Assembly (NCBI RefSeq): GCF_900880625.1
Contig: NZ_CAAHFB010000001.1
Location: forward strand, 186,001-250,000
From: Halorhabdus rudnickae
GTDB lineage: Archaea; Halobacteriota; Halobacteria; Halobacteriales; Haloarculaceae
Direction of reading: 5' to 3'
Length of the DNA stretch: 64,000 nucleotides
Positions 54,470 to 55,086 of this stretch are shown here, piece after piece. How positions within the stretch are numbered: position 1 is the first letter of the stretch; each line of letters starts with the position of its first letter. The position numbers and the translations under genes were made by a program. The notes under the pieces were generated by a model. The model was given only the letters and a program-made list of their open reading frames with translations. It was not told where the DNA came from and searched no databases.

Positions 54470-54532
<63 letters not shown>

Positions 54533-54554
<22 letters not shown>

Positions 54555-54921
54555 TTTTGTCACGAGCAAAACCGCGAGTGACAAACTCGGAAACAGATTT
54601 GAACCCTACCAGTCGCAACCCGGAAAGCGAGCGTTAGCGAGCGACCCGGTACGTCTGGTTCCGGTTCGAATCCGGTCCCACGCATTGTTGTCACGAGCAA
54701 ATCCGTGAGTGACAAAATCGTGATGAGGATTCAAAGTAGAGAAGACGCGCACAGCGGAGCGAGCACGTCTTCGCGTGGTTCGAATCCGGTCCCACGCATT
54801 TCTGTCGCTCGCAAACTCGCGAGCGACTGAAATCGTCAGCGGATTTGAACCCTGGAAGACGCAGTGCGCACAGCGAACGGAGTGAGCAAAGGTTTCTCGG
54901 AGTGGAATCCGTCCCGTAGCG
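54533..54921 (+). repeat. Array of tRNA-Leu 3' ends with hairpins (att-like)
   Basis: The 22-mer GGTTCGAATCCGGTCCCACGCA ending the tRNA (54533-54554) recurs exactly at 54663-54684 and 54777-54798. A degenerate fourth copy (GAATCCGTCCCGTAGC) starts at 54905. Steps are 130, 114 and 123 bp. Each of the first three is followed within about 10 nt by a perfect hairpin (54556-54585, 54688-54715, 54804-54827). Next comes a shared GAxTTGAACCC-like or GATTCAAAG segment and a GAAGACGC-type palindrome. These look like units left by repeated site-specific integration at the tRNA 3' end, but no integrase gene is seen. Confidence 0.75.
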
Positions 54922-55086
54922 TTAGGTTTCCGGCCCACCTACTGGGGCGTATAGTCATACGTCGAGGCGGTCGTCGACGAGATACCTGTGTCGGTGGCAG
55001 TCGTCTCCGAACACCTCCGCAGAGAGTAAAATGGATACGTCGGGTCTTCTTGCTCGGGTTGGGCTGTCTCGATAGCCCCAATCGCG
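54922..55086. other. Short non-coding stretch after the repeat array
   Basis: 165 bp between the last repeat and the rqcH stop. A weak open frame crosses it on the minus strand, but codon use is not like genes. I see no promoter or hairpin that I can support. Confidence 0.4.

Follow-up and report, generated by a model that had tools for sequence, protein, structure and literature searches.

Tandem two-hairpin units behind tRNA genes of Halobacteria are candidate tRNA-specific mobile mini-elements

Described systems resembling the tRNA-linked units

Integron arrays are ordered in tandem and receive new units at their proximal end. Their attC sites combine inverted and direct arms (RYYYAAC ... 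GTTRRRY), span about 50-80 nt and keep structure more than sequence. The units described here, which lie in tandem behind haloarchaeal tRNA genes, resemble integrons in each of these respects: their arms are GATTTGAAC ... GTTCAAATC, and species comparison, array order and decay of the repeated tRNA ends point to addition at the proximal end. They differ from integrons in that any tRNA gene serves as the platform, the arms vary with the tRNA, and neither an IntI nor cassette genes were found. The text of a paper on archaeal integrons (PMC9668308), when searched, contained no mention of Halobacteria. SNJ2-type (Arch2) tyrosine integrases are restricted to Halobacteria, and their elements insert at the tRNA 3' end and leave the tRNA whole (PMC8371274, PMC7911831, PMC8138268), as the units do. 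In contrast to the units, these elements carry genes, have a core of 13-15 bp at the acceptor end, and have an attP devoid of the inverted T-loop copy (I) and the following hairpin (R) of every unit. An integrase and genes of their own, as in SNJ2-type elements, were not found in the surveyed units.

MITEs, PATEs and REP/BIME-type repeats are likewise short, non-coding and hairpin-rich, and are moved in trans if at all. Unlike them, the units are not dispersed but bound to tRNA ends, and they contain a target-matched internal arm and a direct copy (D) of about 20 bp; I and D are inverted copies within the unit, and no autonomous parent was found among the R-D sites examined. The ends of IS200/IS605 elements present a pairing guide, a hairpin and a paired site in an order that fits the units. 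The units differ in pairing over about 10-13 nt rather than 4, in containing a direct target copy and in having no linked transposase; a TnpB gene was seen at one locus only (L345). Tandem islands at tRNA genes, with their accreted att sites, also repeat tRNA 3' ends, whereas the units have no genes between the copies, a spacing of about 110-130 bp and the same two-hairpin anatomy in each spacer. In Methanopyrus kandleri, a palindrome lies 10 bp downstream of tRNAs (PMC5217627); its motif is different. No published description of the units was found in open-access full texts, and the family is apparently undescribed so far.

The array behind tRNA-Leu(GAG) and the anatomy of the units

The window is the whole stretch of 64,000 nucleotides that was analysed, G000:C1:186001-250000, where G000 is the 3.36-Mb genome of Halorhabdus rudnickae. 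The last 22 nt of its tRNA-Leu(GAG) (54533-54554) recur exactly at 54663-54684 and 54777-54798, at steps of 130 and 114, and once more in decayed form at about 54900-54921 (step ~123). A stem-loop stands directly 3' of the tRNA and of both exact copies, but not of the last copy. A first-pass annotation had described these repeats and stem-loops, and both descriptions were confirmed. It had missed a second hairpin (R) and a short inverted T-loop copy (I) in each unit, as well as growth at the tRNA-proximal end and a backbone common to different tRNAs. A unit contains a hairpin L, I (an inverted copy of positions ~54-64 of its own tRNA), a hairpin R and D (a direct copy of positions 54-73 of its own tRNA) (Table 1). 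The length including D is 81-264 bp with a median of 130 in Halorhabdus; without D, the median is 110 in other haloarchaea. A search of the window against Rfam matched no curated family besides tRNA.

Table 1. Features of the array behind tRNA-Leu(GAG), in window coordinates
Feature	Coordinates	Strand	Sequence or description	Remarks
tRNA-Leu(GAG)	54470..54554	+	target gene; tRNA positions 53-73 = 54534-54554	ARAGORN; Rfam RF00005
Unit 1 hairpin L	54556..54585	+	TTTGTCAC / GTGACAAA; inner tandem GA + GC/GC pairs	arms 54556-54563/54578-54585
Unit 1 I	54596..54604	+	inverted T-loop copy GATTTGAAC	1 mismatch vs own TTCGAAT loop
Unit 1 hairpin R	54605..54663	+	CCAGTCGCAACCCGG ... CCCGGTACGTCTGG	class-A R motif
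Unit 1 D	54664..54684	+	direct copy of tRNA positions 53-73	exact
Unit 2 hairpin L	54688..54715	+	TTGTCAC / GTGACAA	arms 54688-54694/54709-54715
Unit 2 I	54728..54735	+	inverted T-loop copy GATTCAAA	decayed
Unit 2 hairpin R	54736..54777	+	GAAGACG ... CGTCTTC	
Unit 2 D	54778..54798	+	direct copy of tRNA positions 53-73	exact
Unit 3 hairpin L	54804..54827	+	GTCGCTCGC / GCGAGCGAC	arms 54804-54812/54819-54827
Unit 3 I	54842..54850	+	inverted T-loop copy GATTTGAAC	
Unit 3 hairpin R	54851..54899	+	core GCGAACGGAGTGAGC	
Unit 3 D	54900..54921	+	copy of tRNA 3' end, decayed	by eye; under threshold of own-tRNA-end search

DNA downstream of all tRNAs was taken from G000 and three Halorhabdus congeners, one genome per species. 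Copies of a tRNA's own end were called within 900 bp at up to 6 mismatches in 21, a setting at which some calls are decayed or chance matches. Such copies lie behind 23 of 42 tRNA genes in G000 and behind 25/43, 27/41 and 19/42 in the congeners. No unit was present in the four genomes at tRNA-Ala(TGC), Thr(CGT), Thr(TGT), His or Leu(CAG). At Leu(CAG) and Ser(GCT), conservation relative to the downstream gene sets in at base 1-2 past the tRNA. D is fully identical to its own tRNA from about position 53/54 to exactly position 73. Identity is at most 0.62 past position 73; upstream, it is 0.86, 0.52 and 0.59 at positions 52-50 (0.70, 0.27 and 0.36 when shuffled) and at background before that. Over positions 54-73, 94 D copies in the four genomes are exact or have one mismatch. 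The tRNA-Thr(GGT) of G005 and G006 has an uncommon T-stem pair, A53-T61, in place of G53-C61, and its D copies keep G53; in G006, both D copies at this A53 tRNA do so (n=2).

At each variable position between 57 and 64, the arm I agrees with its own tRNA more often than with randomly chosen ones: the match is 98% at positions 57 and 59 (71-74% for random tRNAs) and 83/74/58% at positions 62-64 (62/41/26%). In young units, I is near-perfect but not perfect, as in unit 1 of Arg-CCG in G005 (GGGATTTTGAA, with an extra T); this speaks for a pairing arm that existed beforehand rather than one newly copied. Of 25 cases in which D has mutated, I retains the tRNA base in 20, indicating that its match was set at insertion and not maintained later. 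An altered T-loop, TTCACAAT or TTCAACAT, is common to D copies at tRNA-Met (G005, G006) and Pro-TGG (G000, G005), suggesting that the units at these two tRNAs may have a common history.

L modules fold better than their shuffles (median z of -2.2 with DNA parameters and -2.6 with RNA parameters). A hairpin with tandem GA/GA pairs occurs in 33 of 88 L modules, on 21 distinct stems, compared with 0.2 in shuffles. R surrounds a fixed motif, GTCGCAGC...GACCGTCT, and its free positions are paired in 98% of cases (121 distinct sites), compared with 47-59% in shuffles. On these counts, the earlier argument that compensated stems imply selection holds. G-C, C-G, A-T and T-A pairs are all used at the variable positions of R; G-T (9/363 cells) and A-C (3/363 cells) are about equally rare in the covarying stems, and GNA loops are frequent. 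The scarcity of G-T and the frequent GNA loops would suit, though not prove, a structure formed by a DNA strand. Taken alone, R does not fold significantly better than its shuffled versions (median z of -0.33 for DNA and -0.69 for RNA), so the support for its structure comes from covariation. The complementarity of I and D, together with this covariation, describes a hairpin site whose outer arms are inverted and whose fold is conserved, at the level of structure rather than of activity. The hairpin core GCGANCGNAGNGAGC gave 21 matches and its reversed control 7; because this excess is modest and the core also occurs outside tRNA regions, it is no marker by itself.

Within the phylum, the family is almost wholly restricted to Halobacteria. 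A pattern with I, a spacer and D (GATTTGAA-N31..61-GTTCAAATC), which two facing tRNA genes cannot produce, matched 169 of 194 Halobacteria genomes, and the reversed-pattern control matched 0. Outside the class but within the same phylum, it was found in 4 of 164 genomes among those listed. All matches listed for G000 lie in tRNA downstream regions or in units displaced by an island at tRNA-Val. The same anatomy at 23 of the 42 tRNAs of G000, the class-wide I-D pattern and its empty control exclude chance for the Leu(GAG) repeat. A stricter pattern (R motif plus D) was searched in 84,980 species and gave at least 120 loci, and 80 of 80 titles among the matches listed are haloarchaeal. Among the matches listed, 108 of 126 R-D sites have a same-strand tRNA no more than 1.2 kb upstream; the pattern prescribes only nine bases, yet 78 of the 108 reproduce positions 54-73 of that tRNA without a mismatch. 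In viral contigs, the highest-G+C matches to the I-spacer-D pattern inspected among those listed contained no haloarchaeal units, and similarity searches of phages and plasmids returned tRNA genes or fragments of tRNA and nothing else.

Gain, turnover and exchange of modules

Comparison of orthologous tRNAs shows that the downstream DNA aligns across species once exactly one or two whole tRNA-proximal units are skipped. At Arg-CCG, positions 131-281 of G005 correspond to positions 1-151 of G006 with 99% identity, and the skipped unit is 109+21=130 bp. The unit-sized difference is 160 bp at Asn, with 92% identity over the 2.4 kb beyond, and 127 bp at Pro-TGG, with 98% identity. Further single-unit differences were found at Arg-GCG (134 bp), Glu-CTC (115 bp), Lys-CTT (136 bp) and Thr-GGT (157 bp), and two-unit differences at Met (245 bp) and Ser-TGA (233 bp), the latter two with 97-98% identity. 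Turnover is high, the 147 units of the four congeners clustering into 126 families. The units that species have in common are distal ones, and those specific to a lineage are proximal. In the Met array, unit A is present in all four species, with F, G and H added in G000 and D and E added in G006; B is common in the Gly-GCC array, with D or C added, and in the Asn array, with A or C added. These differing additions on one common base indicate gains, not losses alone. Proximal units are surely also lost by D-D recombination, which mimics gain in a pairwise comparison. Decay of D increases outward: in successive pairs, the farther D is more decayed in 27, less decayed in 2 and equally decayed in 25.

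The first-pass annotation had favoured a small repetitive element exploiting tRNA ends over simple stacked att scars, and had proposed looking for such units at other tRNAs and for integrase islands between the copies in relatives. Units are present at about half of the tRNA genes in the four Halorhabdus genomes and across the class, and in relatives the loci are distinguished by whole units alone, with no integrase island separating the copies. The many occupied tRNAs and the unit-sized differences therefore support its preference, and the units are very probably mobile mini-elements in some form.

Units are also modular, their L and R parts recombining at I. At Ser-TGA of G006, two units have a common L and different R, and the same is seen between species at Val-TAC and Glu-TTC. 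A single backbone recurs, at about 80-85% identity over ~110 bp, behind Lys, Ser, Val, Ala, Glu, Gly and Arg tRNAs, and several such families exist. In most units with a common backbone, I is the reverse complement of the local tRNA T-arm (GGGCAGATTTGAA at Val, GAAGGGATTTGAA at Lys and GAGGGATTTGAA at Arg). Of unit pairs at least 96% identical across loci, 73% are at the same tRNA, compared with 3.6% of random pairs; some may simply be orthologous units in related species, which weakens the same-tRNA excess under any model.

Insertion mechanism, alternatives and neighbouring elements

Mobility of the units is well supported; the mechanism we infer. We give about even weight to the reading that they are non-coding, tRNA-specific mobile mini-elements that insert behind the tRNA with a cassette-like topology and a folded I-R-D site. 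An array would then read tRNA(54-73) - L - I - R - D(54-73) - L - I - R - D and so on. The T-loop and 3' end of the tRNA would act as attI, and I-R-D as an attC-like folded hairpin site in which I pairs with the start of D. Each insertion would leave the tRNA with a complete 3' end; new units would join beside the tRNA and older ones would shift outward. The recombinase would be site-specific and act in trans, most likely a tyrosine recombinase, with the exchange point in the T-loop at about 53/54 and the hairpin recognised as a folded single strand. That units enter at the T-loop like cassettes is supported by the hairpin site, by growth at the proximal end, by a D that starts in the T-loop and by its G53 where the tRNA has A53. 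Apart from the two A53 copies, the crossover cannot be placed to the base, since the left edge of D falls within the universal GTTC. The folded-site, cassette-like mechanism itself has somewhat less than even weight in our judgement. The same product would result if the unit entered after position 73 and duplicated 20 bp of its target, and an I-guided version of this route would explain more directly the constant fit of D to the host tRNA. More tentatively, the system could be a tRNA integron, in which a resident recombinase puts folded single-stranded mini-cassettes into the tRNA T-loop, I pairs with and selects the target, and a change of ~10 nt re-sets it.

No recombinase gene linked to the units was found among the integrases listed for G000. 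There is no integrase gene beside the arrays, the sole one adjoining units being SNJ2-like, and no coding unit was found in the unit sets surveyed, whose lengths are mostly 80-260 bp. By distribution alone, the Halobacteria-specific Xer-like Arch1 group (PMC8138268) offers a lead to a candidate recombinase.

The units could instead be MITE-like remnants, the two ends of a double-stranded T-loop-integrase element that lost its interior, mobilised in trans as attP with no folded strand. The span from the T-loop to the 3' end is a normal integrase target, D acts like an att core, integrase islands do use these tRNAs, and the shuffling of L and R modules could reflect recombining att arms. However, a classical attP needs neither a target-matched inverted arm nor covarying hairpins, and no full-length parent with unit ends was found among the 126 R-D sites listed (108 of them no further than 1.2 kb from a tRNA) or along the 2.6 kb downstream of 168 tRNAs. 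We regard these remnants as an unlikely source of the units.

Guide-directed transposition, of a single strand or RNA-guided (IS200/IS605- or bridge-RNA-like), seems rather less likely still. I would guide the element to the T-arm and D would be a 20-bp target duplication. The order guide, hairpin, site corresponds to I-R-D, I is target-matched on a common backbone, and it is imperfect even in young units (Arg-CCG unit 1, G005), as expected of a guide and not of a fresh copy. IS200/IS605 insertion is not known to produce a target duplication, and one of 20 bp would be unusual. TnpB genes flank one R-D site (L345), which may be coincidence, and no TnpA or IS110 gene is tied to the units. At L345 itself, I-R-D stands with TnpB-like genes on both sides and no tRNA nearby in the stretch covered; the other distant R-D sites, apart from L370 and L383, are likewise without an upstream tRNA in the stretch covered.

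Two further explanations are somewhat less likely again, and equally so. In the first, the units are structured tRNA 3' trailers or terminators, selected at the RNA level and locally duplicated; in its favour, L opens with a T-rich tract directly past the tRNA and folds above shuffles (median z -2.2 to -2.6). Against this, many orthologous tRNAs are without units, turnover is extreme (126 families for the 147 units of the four congeners), I stays unchanged while D decays, and G-T pairs are scarce in the covarying R stems (9/363 cells). In the second, homologous recombination alone would bring in donor units, foreign haloarchaeal DNA recombining in the tRNA and D so that units enter beside the tRNA. 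The closest cross-locus units are mostly at the same tRNA, and D copies supply homology at both sides, but the first origin of units and of common backbones at many tRNAs would stay unexplained.

That the units are scars of known SNJ2-type proviruses or islands is very improbable: such integrases are common here and one adjoins displaced units at tRNA-Val, but they use a core of 13-15 bp that lies at the acceptor end and includes no T-loop, I or R. D, by comparison, begins in the T-loop and measures 20-21 bp, and the Arg-TCG island used a 13-bp core and displaced an intact unit by ~19 kb. The attP of pleolipoviruses consists of 13-15 bp of the acceptor end (PMC7911831). The pleolipovirus attP sequences examined contain no T-loop, I or R, and on these grounds SNJ2-type attP was rejected as a source of the units.

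The SNJ2-like integrases in islands of G000 are 38-44% identical to the SNJ2 and HRPV9 integrases. An island of ~19 kb at tRNA-Arg(TCG) (loci L413 and L029, G000:C1:378199-397116) has an SNJ2-like integrase near its far end; it was inserted via the 13-bp core CCCTCAGCGCCCG, and the intact old unit now lies ~19 kb from the tRNA. Where integrase islands are present, they lie between the tRNA and older units and have another, shorter core. Since the att cores of the islands are short, confined to the acceptor end and free of I and R, and since the Arg-TCG island displaced an old unit, the units form a layer apart from the islands. At tRNA-Val(GAC) (L050, G000:C6:207500-222500), ~11 kb of ABC-transporter and other genes are followed by two inverted units adjoining a partial tRNA-Val and an SNJ2-like integrase; this looks like an island or an inversion. 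At L370 and L383, the tRNA end and its unit are duplicated around 1.8-2.6 kb of DNA containing a methyltransferase-like ORF and a TnpB-like zinc-ribbon remnant. They represent small integrated elements whose repeat encloses the unit.

If the cassette-like reading of the units is right, they would represent a mobile-element family across a whole archaeal class, occupying ~20 or more tRNA genes per genome (four genomes examined). They would also be a naturally occurring means of site-specific insertion that leaves the target gene intact and could perhaps be re-targeted. How the hairpin arm and the tRNA T-loop are matched would be its testable claim. The ordered arrays would provide a lineage-resolved insertion record for haloarchaea, and the units would account for many of the tRNA-end repeats and false antisense ORFs that annotations contain. 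In the window, a minus-strand ORF of 110 aa (54606-54938) runs antisense across the array and encodes repeated 'AWDRIRTG/T' peptides. Antisense ORFs of this kind, derived from tRNA T-arms, are likely spurious annotations wherever such arrays occur. At locus L198 of the congener G001, ARAGORN reported a tRNA-Stop(TTA) with a glutamine-type 3' end, which is probably a misread tRNA-Gln(TTG).
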